A DNA stretch of 64,000 bases. Source: Thermus thermophilus (GTDB lineage: Bacteria; Deinococcota; Deinococci; Deinococcales; Thermaceae). The translations under genes were made by a program, and so were the position numbers. This document shows positions 4,885 through 56,320 of this stretch, piece by piece. How positions within the stretch are numbered: position 1 is the stretch's first letter; every line of letters starts with the position of its first letter. The notes under the pieces are model-generated. The model saw nothing but the letters and a program-made list of their open reading frames with translations. It had not been told where the DNA came from and searched no databases. Where the stretch lies: contig NZ_AP025158.1 in assembly GCF_019974155.1 (NCBI RefSeq), forward strand, positions 1,116,001 to 1,180,000, in the 5' to 3' direction.

Positions 4885-7035
4885 TCAGGCGAGGACGGAA
4901 AGCCCCTGGGCCTTGGCCTGGTACATGCGGGTGTCGGCGGCGGAGAGGAGCTCGTCGGGGGTCCTGCCGTCCTCGGGGAAGGCGGCGAGGCCGATGTTGA
5001 CCCCGAGGCAAAGCCCGTTAAAGCAGAGGGCCTCTATGGCCCGGGCGTAGCGGAGGGCGGCCCTTAGGGCCCCTTCCTTCCCGGTGTGGGGGAAGAGGGC
5101 CGCGAACTCGTCCCCGCCCCAGCGGAAGATCCGGTCCCCGTTCCGCCTTTGCCCCTCCAGGGCCTCCGCCACCTTCATGAGGGCGAGGTCGCCCACCGCG
5201 TGGCCCAGGCGGTCGTTCACCTGCTTGAAGCCCCTCAGGTCCATGACCGCGAGGGCGAGGGGGTAGCCGTAGCGCTCCGCCCGCTTGAGCTCTTCCAGGA
5301 AGGCCCGCTCAAAGGCCCTCCGGTTGGGCAGGCCCGTGAGGGGGTCGGTGAGGGCGGCCTCCTCCAGGAGCTTCCGGGTGCGGCTTTCGTGGAAGAGGGT
5401 GGCGAGGGGTGCGGCGAAGAAGCGGGCGGCCTCCAGGGAGTCCTCGCCGAAGGCTTTGGGGTCGTGGAGGTTGTCCAGGTTGAGGTAGGCCAGGACCTCC
5501 CCCTTGTAGGGGATGGGGAGGCAGAGGTTGGCCTGGATCTCCTGGGCCTTCCCGGCGGTGTCTATGACCTCGGGCGGGGCGGTCTCGTGGCTGATCTCGG
5601 CGATGGGCCTTTCCTCCACGCTGAGGAGGCGGGGCTCCCCTTGGCGGGCCTTTTCCTCCCCCAGGCCGTACCATTTGAGCTGGGCCTCCCGGGTGAAGGC
5701 CAGGGCCTTTAGGCCCTCCAGGTCGTAGCCGTGGGCCGCCTTGTAGCGGTAGGCCCCGCCTTCCCAGACCAAGAGGCTTCCCGCCTCCGCCCCCGGGACC
5801 TGGCGGATGGCCTCTTCCAGGACCGCCTGGTAGAGCTCCTCCGGAGGTTTTTCCAAAAGCTCCAGGAAGATCCGGTTGACCGCCTCGTGCCGGGCCTTTT
5901 CCGTGAGGCGTTCCAGCCCAAGGCCCAGGGTGCGGGAAGCGAGGAGGAGGAGGTCCACCTCGCTTCTCCGCCAAAGCCTCTCCGCCCTCTGGCCCACCAC
6001 AAAGACCTGCCTCGCCCGGGGCGCCCCCGGGGTGGGGACGGGGAGGGCGGCGAAGGTGCGCCAGTCCAGGGCCTTGAGGGCGGGCACCACCCGGGCCTCC
6101 TCGGCGTAGCGGGCGGTGAAAAGGGGGCTTCTCGTCTCGTAGACCTTCCAGGCGAGGCCTACCCCGTACGGGAGGCCCTCCTCCAGGACCTTGCGGAGGG
6201 CGGGTTCCTCCACGCCGTAGGCCGCGAGGCTCACCATGCGGGCGCCCCGGACCTCAAAGAAGGCGCCGGCCTCGAGGCCTAGCCCCTCCACCAGGAGGGC
6301 CAGGGCCTTCTCCGCCGCTTGGGCCAGGGTGGGGGCGCTTTGCAGCCTCTCCGCCAGCTCGGCCTGCAGCCTCCTTTCCCGCAGGTCGGCCAGGCGGTCC
6401 AGGTGGAGGCTCACCGCCTGGGCGAAGCGCTCCAGGCCCTCCCGGAGCTCCTCGGGAAAGGGCCGGTCCCGCTCCAGGTTGAGGACGGCCACCACCTCCC
6501 CCCTTTCCCGAAGGGGCAGGGCGAGCTCGGCGAGGGCCTTGTGGTCCGGGGGGGCGATGTAGTCCGGGTCCCGGCGCACGTCGGGCACGTACGCGGGCCT
6601 CCCCTCCCGAAAGGCCCGGCCCACCACGCCCCCGTAAGGGATGGTCTGTACGGAAAGGGGGGGGTGGGCGGCGAGGAGGCGGAGGGCTTGCCGCTCGGGC
6701 ACCCACACCCCTACGTGCCCCCGCTCCCCGAGGCGGGCGAGGCGTTCGGGGAGGCTCTTCAGGAGTTCTTCCCGGTTCTGGGCCTTGGGGAGGGCCTCCA
6801 GGGCTTCGGCGAGGAGCCTGTGGGTCTGGGCCAGGTGCTTGGCCCGGCGGTGGGCCTGGCGCAGGCTTCTCCCCACCTCCTCGGCGAGGAGGGCGGCGAG
6901 GAGGAGGGCGGCGAGGGAGGGGAGGTCCAAGGCCCCTTGGAACGCGAGGAGGAGGCCTGCGAGGCCCACGGCGACAAGCCCCGCTCCGAGCCCGAAGACG
7001 CTCGCTACGAGGCCCACGGCCACCCATGCTACCAC
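4885..7035 (-). CDS. Membrane-anchored diguanylate cyclase with three GAF-like domains
   Basis: This 716-residue protein starts with two or three membrane segments (residues 1-55), followed by three GAF-like sensor domains (roughly 75-235, 240-385, 395-545) and a C-terminal GGDEF domain (550-716). The catalytic GGDEF motif is intact at 640-644 (RWGGDEFAALF), and RNGD lies five residues before it, matching the RxxD product-inhibition site. It should make cyclic di-GMP from GTP in response to ligands bound by the GAF domains. The start is GTG at 7035. It is the only undamaged cyclic di-GMP gene in this block. Confidence 0.88.
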   Translation of the reverse strand: MVAWVAVGLVASVFGLGAGLVAVGLAGLLLAFQGALDLPSLAALLLAALLAEEVGRSLRQAHRRAKHLAQTHRLLAEALEALPKAQNREELLKSLPERLARLGERGHVGVWVPERQALRLLAAHPPLSVQTIPYGGVVGRAFREGRPAYVPDVRRDPDYIAPPDHKALAELALPLRERGEVVAVLNLERDRPFPEELREGLERFAQAVSLHLDRLADLRERRLQAELAERLQSAPTLAQAAEKALALLVEGLGLEAGAFFEVRGARMVSLAAYGVEEPALRKVLEEGLPYGVGLAWKVYETRSPLFTARYAEEARVVPALKALDWRTFAALPVPTPGAPRARQVFVVGQRAERLWRRSEVDLLLLASRTLGLGLERLTEKARHEAVNRIFLELLEKPPEELYQAVLEEAIRQVPGAEAGSLLVWEGGAYRYKAAHGYDLEGLKALAFTREAQLKWYGLGEEKARQGEPRLLSVEERPIAEISHETAPPEVIDTAGKAQEIQANLCLPIPYKGEVLAYLNLDNLHDPKAFGEDSLEAARFFAAPLATLFHESRTRKLLEEAALTDPLTGLPNRRAFERAFLEELKRAERYGYPLALAVMDLRGFKQVNDRLGHAVGDLALMKVAEALEGQRRNGDRIFRWGGDEFAALFPHTGKEGALRAALRYARAIEALCFNGLCLGVNIGLAAFPEDGRTPDELLSAADTRMYQAKAQGLSVLA

Positions 7036-14240: not shown

Positions 14241-15092
14241 GTGATGGGCGAAGCCTTTTGGGAAACCGGCTTGGAGGAAGCCCTAAAGGCCTGGCTCCAG
14301 GAGGACCTGGGGCAGGGGGACCTCACGAGCCTCCTGGTGGTTCCGGAGGACCTCGAGGGCGAGGCCGTGATCCTCGCCAAGGAGGGGGGCATCCTCGCGG
14401 GGCTTGGGGTGGCGGAGCGGGTTTTCGCCCTCGCGGACCCACGCACCGCCTTCACCCCCCTGGTGGCGGAGGGGGCGAGGGTGGCGGAGGGGACGGAGGT
14501 GGCCCGGATCCGGGGGCCTTTGCGGGGCATCCTCGCCGGGGAGAGGCTCGCCCTCAACCTCCTGCAACGCCTCTCCGGGATCGCCACCCTGACCCGGGCC
14601 TACGTGGAGGCCCTCGCGGGCACCAAAGCCCAGATCCTGGACACCCGCAAGACCACCCCGGGGCTTCGCGCCCTGGAGAAGTACGCCGTGCGGGTCGGCG
14701 GGGGGAGGAACCACCGCTATGGCCTCTTTGACGGGATCCTCCTCAAGGAGAACCACGTCCGGGCGGCGGGGGGCGTGGGCGAGGCGGTGCGGCGGGCCAA
14801 GGCCCGCGCCCCCCACTACCTCAAGGTGGAGGTGGAGGTGCGAAGCCTGGAGGAGCTGGAGGAGGCCCTAGAAGCCGGGGCCGACCTCATCCTCCTGGAC
14901 AACTTCCCCCTCGAGGCCCTAAGGGAGGCGGTGCGCCGCGTGGGGGGGCGGGTGGCGCTGGAGGCGAGCGGGAACATGACCCTGGAGCGGGCAAGGGCCG
15001 CGGCAGAGGCCGGGGTGGACTACATCTCCGTGGGGGCCCTCACCCACTCGGCCAAGGCCTTGGACCTCTCCCTCCTGGTAGTGCGTCCATGA
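14241..15092 (+). CDS. nadC: Quinolinate phosphoribosyltransferase
   Basis: NadC condenses quinolinate with PRPP and decarboxylates it to nicotinate mononucleotide, the last de novo step before NAD assembly. The 283-residue protein has the family motifs [23 protein letters not shown] and the C-terminal barrel segment [26 protein letters not shown]. It opens a group nadC-vapB-vapC-nadA-nadB that is tightly packed with overlapping starts and stops. GTG 14241 (M-M-G-E) suits the -10 at 14229; ATG 14244 is the alternative. Confidence 0.95.
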
Positions 15093-51430: not shown

Positions 51431-52543
51431 GTGGCCCTGGAGCTTCCGGGAAACCCCCTGGCCCCCGCCCTCCGCCTCCTGGAGGAAGGGCGGGACCGGG
51501 AGGCGGAAGCCCTCCTCCAAACTTCCCAAGGAAGCCTCCCAGAGGCCGAGCGCCTGGCCCTTCTAGGCTTCGTAGAGGCCCGTAAGGGGAACCTTCGGGC
51601 CTACCGCGCCCTGGCCCTGGAGGCCGCCCGAAGGGCCCAGACCCCCCTCACCCTCTACCACCTGGGCCTGGCCCTCCCTCCAAAGGCGGGGGCCCTGGCC
51701 CTGGAAGAGGCCCTCCACCGCTTCCAGGGAGACCCCAAGGCCGAGGCCCGCCTCGCCTTCGCCCTGGCCCGCGCCCTAAGGGGGCTTGGCCGCCTCAGGG
51801 AGGCCCTGGGCTACGCCGCCCTGGCCCTTGCCCGGGGCTTTGGCCCCTCCGCCCTCCTGGAGTGGGCCTGGCTCGCCCTCCTCGCCGAGGAGGACCCTCC
51901 CCTCCCCGACCTCCTCCGGCAGGTGGAACTCCTGGCCCTGGAGAGAGGCACGGGGCTCTACGCCCGCTTCCTCATGGCCCACCTGCGCTTCCTCCAGGGG
52001 GAGGAGGCCTCGGGGAGGGCCTACCTGCGGAAGGCCCTGGAGGAGGCCCCTCTTCCCGCCCTTCCCTACCTCGCCCCCGCCGGGGTGCGCCTCCTGGGGA
52101 AGGAGGTCCTCCCCTTCCTCCAGGCGGCGAGGCCCTGGGCCAAGGAGCCCCTCACCCAGGCCCTCCTCGCCTTGGCCGAAGGGCTCTACCGGGAGGACGA
52201 GGAAGGGGTGGCCAAGACCCTGCCCCTCCTCCTGGAGGAGGTGGCGGAGGAGGCCATGCGGGGCCTCCTCTTCCTGGGAAGGCCCCACCCCCTCCTGGGA
52301 GAGCTCTCCCGGAGGGGGCAGGAGCTCCTCTGGGCCGCAAGCCCCTCGGCCCACTTCCAGGCCCTGGGGGAGCCAAGGCTTAACGGCGGGCCCCTCCCCC
52401 TGCGCCAGGCGGAGCTCCTCGTCCTCCTCCTCGCCCGGAAGGAGGGGTGGAAGGGGGAGGAGCTGGCTCTGGCCCTCTACGGGCGGTGCCTGGACGGAAC
52501 TCGCCTCCGGAATCTGGTACCGGGAGGAGGAGGGGAGGGTTGA
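51431..52543 (+). CDS. TPR-like helical protein with a cut-off SARP-type winged helix
   Basis: The 370-residue protein consists of helical repeats (about 1-310; LPGNPLAPALRLLEEGRDRE, AFALARALRGLGRLREALGY) followed by LGEPRLNGGPLPLRQAELLV and LLARKEGWKGEELALALYG, which is how the winged helix of SARP/BTAD-type activators begins. After residue 346 the sequence (CLDGTRLRN onward) no longer fits, so the DNA-binding domain is probably truncated by recombination or frameshift near 52490. It may be the original regulator of the peptide/ABC locus that follows. Confidence 0.55.
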   Translation: MALELPGNPLAPALRLLEEGRDREAEALLQTSQGSLPEAERLALLGFVEARKGNLRAYRALALEAARRAQTPLTLYHLGLALPPKAGALALEEALHRFQGDPKAEARLAFALARALRGLGRLREALGYAALALARGFGPSALLEWAWLALLAEEDPPLPDLLRQVELLALERGTGLYARFLMAHLRFLQGEEASGRAYLRKALEEAPLPALPYLAPAGVRLLGKEVLPFLQAARPWAKEPLTQALLALAEGLYREDEEGVAKTLPLLLEEVAEEAMRGLLFLGRPHPLLGELSRRGQELLWAASPSAHFQALGEPRLNGGPLPLRQAELLVLLLARKEGWKGEELALALYGRCLDGTRLRNLVPGGGGEG

Positions 52544-52544
52544 A

Positions 52545-52700
52545 ATGGACTTTTCGCCACCCCTCTTCACCGAGGAGAGCGTGCAGAAGTTCGCTGCATA
52601 CGCCCAAGGGAAAATGGCCCAAGCCATCCCCGAGGAAAAGGCATTCTGGGAGGAAGAGCTCCGCTTTGTAAAGGAGCAGCACGCTCTTTGGTTCAGATGA
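52545..52700 (+). CDS. Small acidic-aromatic protein of unknown function (51 aa)
   Basis: Begins MDFSPPLFTEESVQKFAAYA and ends HALWFR. The frame is open upstream as well (ELASGIWYREEEGRVE), so it might be the end of a longer, broken gene. Its stop TGA lies in GATGAGGAG, which forms the RBS of the next gene, so the two are coupled. GC is lower than in the neighbours. No family recognised. Confidence 0.5.
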   Translation: MDFSPPLFTEESVQKFAAYAQGKMAQAIPEEKAFWEEELRFVKEQHALWFR

Positions 52701-52707
52701 GGAGCTT

Positions 52708-53268
52708 GTGGTAAGCCTCCTGGAAAGGGCCTTCTTGGAGAGGATCCCTCTCCTCCTGAAGGAACCGCAGCGCCAGGAGCTTAGGGCGAAGCTGAGGGAA
52801 ATCGTGAGGCAGATGAAACGGTATGGTCCGGAGAACCTCCCCGGGGGTGGAGGCTTCCAGGGATTGCCCCCGGAGCTCAAGACCCCTGACGGGGGAATGG
52901 TGGTGGGCCCGGACACCTTTTCCCTCCTGGTCCAGTACCTGGGCCCCCAGTCTCTTTTCCCCTCTTGTAGCCTGGCGGCCTCGGCCATGCCCACTACGGC
53001 CTCTCCTGGGGCTAAGGCCTACGCTACCGCCAGCTGCTCTACCGAAAGCGTCATCTGGGGCCAGGTGGAAACCCGGACCAGCGCCAGGGCGGCGAGCAAC
53101 TGGCCCCCACCTTGCTACGACTCGGGTTGGCCCACTTCCCAGTGCATGAGCGTGGCCTACGGGAGTATGGGGTGCTACAGCTCAGCCTGGGCAGGTTACT
53201 ATTACCAGTGGACAGACCTTAGGATTTACTCAAGCAGGCGTTCTTCGTCTAACTCCAGGTGTTTTTGA
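52708..53268 (+). CDS. Cysteine-rich, Trp/Tyr-rich protein of unknown function (186 aa)
   Basis: Residues 1-60 are charged and helical (LLERAFLERIPLLLKEPQRQ, ELRAKLREIVRQMKRYG), then a Gly/Pro stretch (LPGGGGFQGLPPEL), then from about 83 a Ser/Thr/Tyr/Trp-rich part with all six Cys and motifs such as VIWGQVETRTSARAASN and SSAWAGYYYQWTDLRIY. Thermus cytoplasmic proteins are poor in Cys, so export and disulfide bonding are likely. There is no Sec signal; a leader-plus-mature-domain design is possible. Start GTG 52708 with GAGGAG 3 nt upstream. Third-position GC is clearly lower than in neighbours. Confidence 0.6.
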   Translation: MVSLLERAFLERIPLLLKEPQRQELRAKLREIVRQMKRYGPENLPGGGGFQGLPPELKTPDGGMVVGPDTFSLLVQYLGPQSLFPSCSLAASAMPTTASPGAKAYATASCSTESVIWGQVETRTSARAASNWPPPCYDSGWPTSQCMSVAYGSMGCYSSAWAGYYYQWTDLRIYSSRRSSSNSRCF

Positions 53269-53332
53269 ACGCGCAGGCGAGTCGGAGCCGGCACCTCGCC
53301 CCTGCACGGGCTAGGGAAAGGAGGTGAGGAGG

Positions 53333-53422
53333 ATGCGGTGGGTGGTGAAGCCTTCTCGGGTGCAGCCCTTGGGTGACCCGGGTTGCGGTGGAAGGATGCC
53401 CGCGCCCTGCCCTCAAAGATAA
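53333..53422 (+). CDS. 29-residue peptide, candidate secreted or modified peptide precursor
   Basis: ATG 53333 follows AAGGAGGTGAGGAGG, a perfect match to the 16S 3' end and far stronger than most RBS here. The peptide starts MRWVVKPSRVQPLGDPG and continues with a Cys, GGRMPAP, a second Cys and PQR before TAATAG. The basic/aromatic first half with KP...LG recalls leader peptides of ribosomally made, modified peptides; the second half is short, Gly/Pro-rich and has two Cys. A 13-bp hairpin follows after 23 nt, then an ABC-2 transporter. No modification enzyme is adjacent. Confidence 0.55.
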   Translation: MRWVVKPSRVQPLGDPGCGGRMPAPCPQR

Positions 53423-53512: not shown

Positions 53513-54265
53513 ATGCTCTGGCCGCTTTGGAGCGAGTTCCTGCTCTCTTGGGCCCGAACCCGGCGTTACTGGTTCAACACGCTGGCCAACCTGGGGGGGA
53601 GCCTCCTCTACTTCTACGCGATCCTTTTGGGCTTTAGCCGGCTTACCCCCGAGGAGGCCCGCTTCTTGGACCCAGGCCCCCTGCTTCTGGTCTTCACGGC
53701 CTTCAACCTCACTTTGTTCACCTTCCAGTCCATCGCCTACACCGTCCAGGGCGAGGCGCAACTGGGGACCCTGGAACACATGGCCCTGGCCCGGGGAGGC
53801 CTCCTGCGCCAGCTCCTCCTTCGGGCCCTGGTGCAAAGCCTATTCGGGGTTCTCTGGAGCCTTTTGGTCCTCCTACCCTTGGCCTTGGCCTTCGGCGTGG
53901 CCCTAGGCCCCCTGGCCCGCTGGCCTTTGGGGTTCTTGCCCCTTTTCCTGGCCGCCTTGGGCTTCGGCCTCCTCATGGGGGCCACTGCCTTGTACTTCAA
54001 GCAGGTGGACGAGTTTTTCACCATCGTCCAGTTCCTCTTCCTGCCCTACTTCTTCTATCTGGTCCGGTTTGAGCCCTGGATGGCCCACCTGCCCTTTGCC
54101 CCGGGGGCCTACCTCCTCCGGCTCGCCTTCACAGGGGAGGAGGTTTCTCCGGGGCTTCTCCTCCTGGCCCTGGTCCAAGCCCTCCTCTTCCTCGGGGCGG
54201 GGCTTTTCGCCATGGCCTGGGTCTACGCGGCGGTGCGGCGGAGGGGCCTATTAGGGAGGTACTGA
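53513..54265 (+). CDS. ABC-2 type membrane permease
   Basis: The 250-residue protein has six helices (about 23-42, 55-75, 105-130, 140-160, 175-190, 215-240) and the ABC-2 family segment TVQGEAQLGTLEHMALARGG. ABC-2 permeases export drugs, lipids or peptides. It shares one overlapping base with the ATPase gene. By position it probably exports the 29-residue peptide or the Cys-rich protein, or confers self-protection. Confidence 0.8.
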   Translation: MLWPLWSEFLLSWARTRRYWFNTLANLGGSLLYFYAILLGFSRLTPEEARFLDPGPLLLVFTAFNLTLFTFQSIAYTVQGEAQLGTLEHMALARGGLLRQLLLRALVQSLFGVLWSLLVLLPLALAFGVALGPLARWPLGFLPLFLAALGFGLLMGATALYFKQVDEFFTIVQFLFLPYFFYLVRFEPWMAHLPFAPGAYLLRLAFTGEEVSPGLLLLALVQALLFLGAGLFAMAWVYAAVRRRGLLGRY

Positions 54266-55181
54266 TGCGGCTTTTGGTGCAGAACGTCCACAAGCGCTTC
54301 GGCAAGCTGGAGGCCCTCAAGGGGGTGAGCCTGGAGCTTGGGGCCGGGGAGATCCTGGGCCTTTTGGGCCCCAACGGGGCGGGCAAGACCACCCTCATCA
54401 AGGTCGTCCTCGGCCTCCTCCTCCCCGATGGGGGGGAGGTGGTCCTGGAGGAGGGCGGGGCGCGGCGCAGGCCCCAGGGCCACGAGTTCGGTGTCCTCCT
54501 GGAGGGAAGCCGCAACCTCTACGTCAACCTGAGCCTCCTGGTGAACGCCCTCTACTTCGGGGGCATCCGGGGGCTTCCCCCTAAGGAGGTCCGGCCCCGG
54601 TTTGAGGCCTGGCTGGAGCGCTTTGGCCTAAGGGACCGCCTCCACGCCCCCCTCGCCTCCCTCTCCCGGGGCATGCAGCAGAAGGCGGCCTTGGCCCTCG
54701 CCCTCGCCCTCAAGCCCCGCTTCCTCCTCCTGGACGAGCCCACCCTGGGCCTGGACCCCGTGAGCCGGAGGGAGTTTGAGGGGATCCTCCTGGAGCTCAA
54801 GAAGGAGGGCTGGGGCATCCTCCTCACCTCCCACGACCTCGAGGTGGTGGAGCGGGTGAGCGACCGCGTGGCCTTCCTCCACCGGGGCGAGGTGCGGCGG
54901 CAGGGCCCCACCCGGGCCCTCCTCCGGGACTGGGCCGGGGAGGGGTACCGGGTGCGCCTCGCCGAGCCCAAGGCGGAGGCCCTCCTCAAGGCCTTGGGCC
55001 CCGGCTGGAGTGCGGAAAGCCCCGAGGTCCTCTTCTTCCTGGGGCCGTGGGAGGCGCTGCGGGAGGCCTTGGGAACCCTCCCCGTGGAATGGAAGTGTTG
55101 GAGGTCTCCCGGGGGACGCCGAGCCTCGAGGCCCTCTTCCTCCACCTCTTCGGGGAGGCCCACCCTTTCCCCAGCGCATAA
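54265..55181 (+). CDS. ABC transporter ATPase, partner of the ABC-2 permease; frameshift near 3' end
   Basis: Walker A GPNGAGKTT, signature LSRGMQQK, Walker B FLLLDEPTLGLD and the switch His in LLTSHDLE are intact. At about 55089 one base is missing: the frame LPVEWKCW replaces the expected continuation MEVLEVSRGTPSLEALFLHL ending in EAHPFPSA-stop at 55181, a normal end for this family. Uncorrected, the frame runs to 55437 into the next gene. The ATPase core is unaffected, so function may persist. Powers the ABC-2 permease. Confidence 0.8.
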
Positions 55182-55189
55182 CTTTGCGC

Positions 55190-55195
55190 TACCCT
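55190..55195 (+). promoter_or_regulatory. -10 hexamer of the aminotransferase operon (leaderless)
   Basis: TACCCT, 6 nt before ATG 55202. Confidence 0.45.
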
Positions 55196-55201
55196 ATCCC
55201 C

Positions 55202-56320
55202 ATGCGCCTCCACCCCCGCACCGAGGCGGCCAAGGAGAGCATCTTCCCCAGGATGAGCCGGCTCGCCCAGCGCCTGGGCGCGGTGAACCTGGGCCAGGGG
55301 TTTCCCTCCAATCCCCCGCCTCCCTTCCTCCTGGAGGCGGTGCGGCGCGCTTTAGGCCGCTACGACCAGTACGCCCCCCCGGCGGGGCTTCCCGCCCTCC
55401 GGGAGGCCCTCGCCGAGGAGTTCGCCGTGGAGCCTGAGGGCGTGGTGGTCACCTCCGGGGCCACGGAGGCCCTTTATGTCCTCCTGCAAAGCCTCGTGGG
55501 CCCGGGGGACGAGGTGGTGGTGCTGGAGCCTTTCTTTGACGTCTACCTGCCGGACGCCTTCCTGGCGGGGGCCGAGGCCAGGCTTGTGCGCTTAGACCTC
55601 ACCCCAGAGGGCTTCCGCCTGGACCTTTCCGCCCTGCAAGGGGCCCTCACCCCAAGGACCCGGGCCCTCCTCCTCAACACCCCCATGAACCCCACGGGGC
55701 TTGTCTTCGGGGAGAGGGAGCTTGAGGCCATCGCCCGCCTCGCGAGGGAGCACAACCTCTTCCTCATCTCCGACGAGGTCTACGACGAGCTCTACTACGG
55801 GGAAAGGCCAAGGCGCCTCCGGGAGTTCGCCCCCGAGCGCACCTTCACCGTGGGGAGCGCGGGGAAGCGCCTCGAGGCCACAGGCTACCGGGTGGGCTGG
55901 ATCGTGGGGCCCAAGGAGTTCATGCCCCTTCTCGCGGGAATGCGGCAGTGGACGAGCTTCTCCGCCCCCACGCCCCTCCAGGCCGGGGTGGCGGAGGCCC
56001 TAAGGCTGGCGAGGCGCGAGGGCTTTTACGAGGCCCTGCGGGAGGGCTACCGGAGGCGGCGGGACCTCCTCGCCGGGGGGCTTAGGGCCATGGGGCTTAG
56101 GGTCTACGTCCCCGAGGGCACCTACTTCCTCATGGCCGAGCTTCCCGGGTGGGACGCCTTCCGCCTCGTGGAGGAGGCGCGGGTGGCCTTAATCCCCGCC
56201 TCGGCCTTCTACCGGGAAGACCCCCCTAAGGACCTCTTCCGCTTCGCCTTCTGCAAGGCCGAGGAGGAGCTTCACCTCGCCTTGGAGCGCCTGGGGCGTG
56301 TGGTAAACTCCGCCCTGTGA
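55202..56320 (+). CDS. Class I aminotransferase (glutamine/kynurenine aminotransferase type)
   Basis: The 372-residue PLP enzyme has NLGQGFPSNPPPPFLLEAV, TSGATEALYVLLQSL, NTPMNPTGLVF, ISDEVYDELYYGE (Asp/Tyr binding PLP) and the Schiff-base Lys in GSAGKRLEATGYRVGW. From memory it is nearly identical to the HB8 glutamine aminotransferase of known structure. It transaminates Gln, Met or aromatic amino acids with 2-oxo acids. It overlaps the E1 alpha gene (GTGA). Confidence 0.9.
   Translation: MRLHPRTEAAKESIFPRMSRLAQRLGAVNLGQGFPSNPPPPFLLEAVRRALGRYDQYAPPAGLPALREALAEEFAVEPEGVVVTSGATEALYVLLQSLVGPGDEVVVLEPFFDVYLPDAFLAGAEARLVRLDLTPEGFRLDLSALQGALTPRTRALLLNTPMNPTGLVFGERELEAIARLAREHNLFLISDEVYDELYYGERPRRLREFAPERTFTVGSAGKRLEATGYRVGWIVGPKEFMPLLAGMRQWTSFSAPTPLQAGVAEALRLARREGFYEALREGYRRRRDLLAGGLRAMGLRVYVPEGTYFLMAELPGWDAFRLVEEARVALIPASAFYREDPPKDLFRFAFCKAEEELHLALERLGRVVNSAL

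Follow-up and report, generated by a model that had tools for sequence, protein, structure and literature searches.

A six-cysteine open reading frame of Thermus thermophilus as the probable 3' remnant of a surface lipoprotein gene at a modified-peptide locus

A 186-codon open reading frame (ORF) in Thermus thermophilus, which lies within a 64,000-nucleotide stretch of DNA (the 'window', meaning the whole stretch analysed, from genome G000 of 2.17 Mb), is very probably the 3' part of a gene inactivated in the recent past (a pseudogene), whose intact counterparts form a family of cysteine-rich surface lipoproteins linked to RiPP loci. The window copy would be expected to yield no working product. 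What appeared to be a tidy ORF, composed of a leader and a cysteine domain, is on this evidence a gene fossil; once that misreading is corrected, the locus becomes more interesting than the ORF.

The reported frame and the damage upstream of it

When checked against the window sequence the ORF is present as described: it starts with GTG, encodes 186 amino acids, and joins a charged, helical N-terminal part to an aromatic, serine-rich C-terminal part, with all six of its cysteines within the last ~100 residues. The initial annotation was therefore sound as to frame, cysteine placement and composition, but not in treating this bipartite product as a complete protein, because relatives are longer and carry a signal peptide. 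The conservation of the frame is far beyond chance, homologues within the genus reaching an E value of 1e-114. Identity to the T. arciformis/T. parvatiensis protein is 90-91%, and in relatives the corresponding region is met only inside a longer frame. The pattern of variable sites marks the window's lipoprotein gene as a mosaic of two T. arciformis copies, mainly copy A, with copy-B tracts at 52720-52766 and from about 53176 onward.

Table 1. Features of the locus, in positions of the window
Feature	Positions	Strand	Remarks
Putative SARP/TPR-type regulator gene, 3'-truncated	51431..52483	+	Intact homologues (487 aa) share 97% DNA identity as far as 52483
Deletion junction	52483..52484	.	blastn: regulator up to 52483, lipoprotein gene from 52484
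Lipoprotein N-terminal part after the signal peptide	52494..52691	+	Frame differs from the reported ORF; TELASGIWYREEEGRVEMDFSPPLFTEE...KEQHALW
Frameshift (one-base insertion)	52692..52696 (near 52693)	+	DNA alignment, against all five relatives aligned
Reported ORF	52708..53268	+	Encodes the final ~186 lipoprotein residues, with six Cys; T. arciformis copies A and B combined as a mosaic
Maturase 3'-end remnant, 48 bp	53267..53314	+	ERAGESEPAPRPCTG and stop codon; directly after the lipoprotein stop
28-nt element CCCTGCACGGGCTAGGGAAAGGAGGTGA	53300..53327	+	Small hairpin and Shine-Dalgarno sequence
Short peptide gene MRWVVKPSRVQPLGDPGCGGRMPAPCPQR	53333..53422	+	29 codons; leader MR[WY][VI]x[KR]P conserved, Cys-containing core variable
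ABC-2 type permease	53513..54265	+	Kept downstream of the peptide in relatives; weak Pfam match PF12698
ABC transporter ATPase	54265..55100	+	PF00005, 1.6e-26; frameshifted near C-terminus

Two lesions separate the reported ORF from the remainder of its gene (Table 1). The larger is a deletion, amounting to 890 bp by comparison with T. arciformis (L020, 5290-6179) and to 881 bp by comparison with Thermus sp. JCM 17653 (L021), at whose junction no microhomology was seen. It removed ~130 codons from the 3' end of the upstream regulator, along with the lipoprotein's start codon and signal peptide, and fused the two genes; the listed regulator ORF runs past the junction into lipoprotein DNA, as far as 52543. 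(The SARP/TPR-type name is our own reading of the regulator's layout and should be taken as putative, Pfam having returned just weak TPR matches for this protein and its relatives.) The segment that follows the junction, TELASGIWYREEEGRV...KEQHALW, is 74% identical to its counterpart in L018, and ends at the second lesion, the one-base insertion.

In the window copy, then, no signal peptide stands in frame with the cysteine domain, its region having been deleted and the frame shifted. The absence of a Sec signal, which had been taken as a feature of the protein, is real for the window ORF but is due to these two lesions, intact relatives having such a signal; and the charged 'leader-like' half, once proposed to direct export, is instead the helical central region of the full-length lipoprotein, whereas a 29-residue gene nearby looks like the true leader/core peptide. 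Both the missing signal and the 'charged leader' are thus artefacts produced by the gene's decay. The locus as a whole is decaying, because the downstream ABC ATPase is also frameshifted: within its ORF (54265-55437) the C-terminal frame is lost by comparison with L018 and L079, and then reads into the next gene.

Two other accounts of the frame can be set against these observations. It is very unlikely that the 186 residues constitute a functional protein in their own right, in which the charged half would direct export or bind a chaperone and the six-cysteine half would be the secreted effector. The frame is indeed open, a possible Shine-Dalgarno sequence (AGGAG) lies upstream of 52708, and the dN/dS of the fragment (0.22-0.35) gives no visible sign of relaxed selection, though too few changes have accrued; but the same C-terminal region stands behind a signal peptide in full-length relatives, the window still contains the gene's upstream half in another frame, and six cysteines would, without export, remain reduced in the cytoplasm. 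Hardly any weight can be given, either, to the idea that the frameshift is a false one and that the gene is otherwise functional as a fusion to the regulator. A single inserted base is a common type of sequencing error, but an indel error cannot account for the 890-bp deletion in which the start codon and signal peptide were lost, the upstream frame that would be joined is an out-of-frame reading of the regulator gene, and the neighbouring ATPase is frameshifted too.

The intact lipoprotein family

Intact relatives of the inactivated gene encode about 280-322 residues, with ~110-130 extra N-terminal residues that include the signal peptide. Of the 13 N-termini checked, 10 have a PROSITE-like lipobox (...LVVLSGLFAGC, ...LLAGC, ...LLASC and others), a count in which three close Thermus N-termini share one motif; the other three, all from Thermus, keep the hydrophobic signal segment but not the lipobox cysteine. 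The intact relatives are thus Sec-exported proteins, and lipoproteins in most lineages. The suggestion that the cysteine-rich C-terminal half is secreted holds for these relatives, and the window ORF does lie within a peptide locus that includes an ABC exporter.

The signal peptide is followed by a brief beta stretch (WxELAPGIxY...), then by a helical central region and a C-terminal domain of ~100 residues with the pattern C..AxAxPTTxxPGAKAYAxxxC...GW...C.S..A...RC, which contains four invariant cysteines. An extra pair (PPC...SQC) is gained or lost together, giving a total of four or six cysteines in 10 of 11 sequences, a distribution that suggests two constant disulfides and one optional disulfide in this domain. 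AlphaFold2, supplied with shallow alignments, returned pLDDT values of 43.6 (intact protein) and 41.2 (C-terminal domain), too low for a usable model. The copies of relatives are under purifying selection: dN/dS mostly falls at about 0.1-0.3 between pairs, one distant pair reaching 0.54, and dS is saturated in distant pairs.

A profile search found the family in 16 of 111 Deinococcota genomes. No credible match was obtained in Pfam, NCBIfam, PHROGs or PDB sequences, and none was found in phages and viral contigs; matches in plasmids consisted only of unannotated 5' fragments in T. thermophilus. Searches for Rfam families and tandem repeats returned nothing. As far as these searches extended, the proteins would constitute an exported lipoprotein family that has no database entry and is confined to the Deinococcota.

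Several copies lie outside peptide loci, among them one between a secretin-like gene and aroC (G024) and one beside tyrS (G017). An apparent 5' remnant of the lipoprotein gene after the regulator in G013 was rejected, being really the start of an NHL-like ORF (L079, 7805-8788) that shares ~28-35 codons with it; the match covers the first ~28 codons of that ORF, and this shared start may be a sign of recombination at a common upstream segment. In G039 (L088, 4722-5801) an exported C39 peptidase-like protein and a small glycine-rich ORF are encoded divergently from a lipoprotein relative, and a C39 gene (45% identical) also occurs near the plasmid fragment in L060.

The peptide gene and the lost maturase

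The short peptide gene downstream of the reported ORF (Table 1) was too short for the program's ORF list. Its leader, MR[WY][VI]x[KR]P, recurs with distinct cores in the window and in eight further genomes (G001, G004, G005, G009, G014, G016, G023 and G025), the cores of relatives differing as, for example, MRWVVKPGLRIAPSGDCGYNCGQNSGCGINTKLW and MRYIVKPTRSAEPLGCGIFICGSNSGPK; it thus has the conserved leader and variable core of a RiPP precursor. Of 27 Thermus genomes, 13 contain the combined pattern of leader and Shine-Dalgarno sequence, against one match in the control, and the leaders of G009 and G016 (residues 1-9) weakly match TIGR04333. The 28-nt element that precedes the gene varies hardly at all upstream of the nine peptide genes that were aligned, while the DNA upstream of it diverges (its last few bases fall where the nine-gene alignment starts to vary); it may be a regulatory unit of hairpin and Shine-Dalgarno sequence.

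Directly upstream of the peptide, six Thermus genomes (G001, G004, G005, G013, G014 and G023) have a full-length frame for a radical-SAM/SPASM maturase, interrupted in G014 by one internal stop. Its best family is TIGR04463 (363-395 bits, against a curated cut-off of 525), followed by TIGR04334 (Clo7bot; 259-284 bits, against 600). G000, which matches neither family, and T. arciformis and T. parvatiensis (G012 and G021) have no maturase. In the window, the only trace of a maturase beside the precursor gene is the 48-bp remnant, which matches the final 48 bp of the T. altitudinis maturase ORF (positions 1393-1440) at 93.8% identity (E 1.5e-14). Because this remnant persists, and because other Thermus keep a whole maturase there, the lipoprotein gene sits in the former place of the maturase, which it has replaced. 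The window peptide is apparently an orphan precursor of RiPP type in its genome. A separate locus, L083 of G009 (5607-5714), has a maturase cut to an N-terminal stretch and a PCTG C-terminus beside the peptide gene, and represents another route of maturase loss.

The proposed course of events would begin with a Thermus locus comprising a regulator, a maturase, a short leader/core peptide and an ABC-2 exporter; the lipoprotein gene would then have taken the maturase slot, after which the window copy would have lost its start and signal peptide in the deletion that truncated the regulator, and gained its frameshift.

Role of the intact protein and comparison with known systems

The neighbourhoods of the lipoprotein gene in two other Deinococcota lineages bear on what the intact protein does. 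In G099 a large regulator that shares the SARP-type C-terminal domain (phmmer, 118.8 bits) lies at a distance of 1.1 kb from the lipoprotein gene, and LanC (PF05147, 1e-30) and ABC-2 genes lie downstream of it; in G093 the lipoprotein gene is located 0.8 kb from an ORF with a SARP-type domain (131 bits) and a MacB-type permease. Such domains number three in G093 and five in G099, per genome of ~3 Mb. The homology between the Thermus and G099 regulators concerns the C-terminal domain alone, as judged by phmmer and comparison with shuffled sequences, the full-length BLASTP match being weak with composition correction. Downstream of the lipoprotein relative in G099, the region L099 (G099:C65, 8127-17583) contains the LanC-like gene, several ABC-2 permeases and, at 14672-14866, a 64-residue ORF with an FDLD leader-like motif, and could represent a lanthipeptide locus in a member of the Deinococcota.

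It can be proposed, tentatively, that the intact protein is a cell-surface lipoprotein that serves peptide systems in an accessory or self-protective (immunity-like) capacity, a role that is favoured because the SARP-type/ABC neighbourhood recurs in G099 and G093. The association could be partly a matter of chance, given the copies outside peptide loci, and there is a substantial, if somewhat less than even, prospect that the gene was a passenger that landed in a recombination-prone, decaying RiPP locus in which it has no role. That account concerns the role only and fits with the pseudogene; it agrees with the lipoprotein copies found elsewhere in Thermus genomes without peptide genes, with the mosaic make-up of the locus and its variation between genomes (MFS genes, the NHL-like ORF, IS), and with the 5' fragments on T. 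thermophilus plasmids, which speak of a patchy and mobile history. Against it stand the independent SARP-type and ABC transporter neighbourhoods of G093 and G099, despite the few such domains there. A broader and rather doubtful extension of the accessory role is that undescribed cysteine-rich surface lipoproteins of the Deinococcota repeatedly accompany SARP-regulated modified-peptide systems, as immunity proteins, receptors or export accessories, and displaced the maturase in some Thermus, where the peptide would then be unmodified or have been put to another use.

The literature search yielded no paper on the Thermus locus described here, and novelty is therefore claimed only relative to the sources searched. 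Within those sources, the radical-SAM peptide locus of Thermus appears to be undescribed, its peptide gene being short enough to escape notice. If the link between lipoprotein and peptide holds, the intact T. arciformis and T. parvatiensis copies would allow direct bench tests in a model thermophile genus.

Three known systems offer points of comparison. The initial annotation noted a vague likeness to lactococcin 972 relatives, an impression of a small secreted protein rich in aromatic residues and serine; no Pfam profile for that family matched the window ORF or any relative scanned, even at E<=1. Nor is the architecture that of a short precursor bearing a Sec signal of its own: the domain forms part of a ~300-residue lipoprotein with conserved cysteines, intact Thermus relatives being 280-322 residues long with a helical middle domain, and the window ORF has no signal. 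Immunity lipoproteins of the LanI type are found in lantibiotic loci. The likeness to them lies in an exported lipoprotein beside a modified-peptide gene and an ABC-2 transporter (and, in the relative of G099, beside LanC and ABC-2 genes), and the difference in a cysteine-rich C-terminal domain and in the lack of sequence similarity in the libraries searched. Radical-SAM/SPASM RiPP loci (TIGR04463 or TIGR04334/Clo7bot) resemble those of related Thermus in their maturase, their short cysteine-containing peptide with a conserved leader and their ABC exporter; they differ in that the Thermus maturases all score below the curated cut-offs and that Thermus adds a SARP-type regulator, while the window departs further from them, with its maturase reduced to 48 bp and a lipoprotein gene in its stead.
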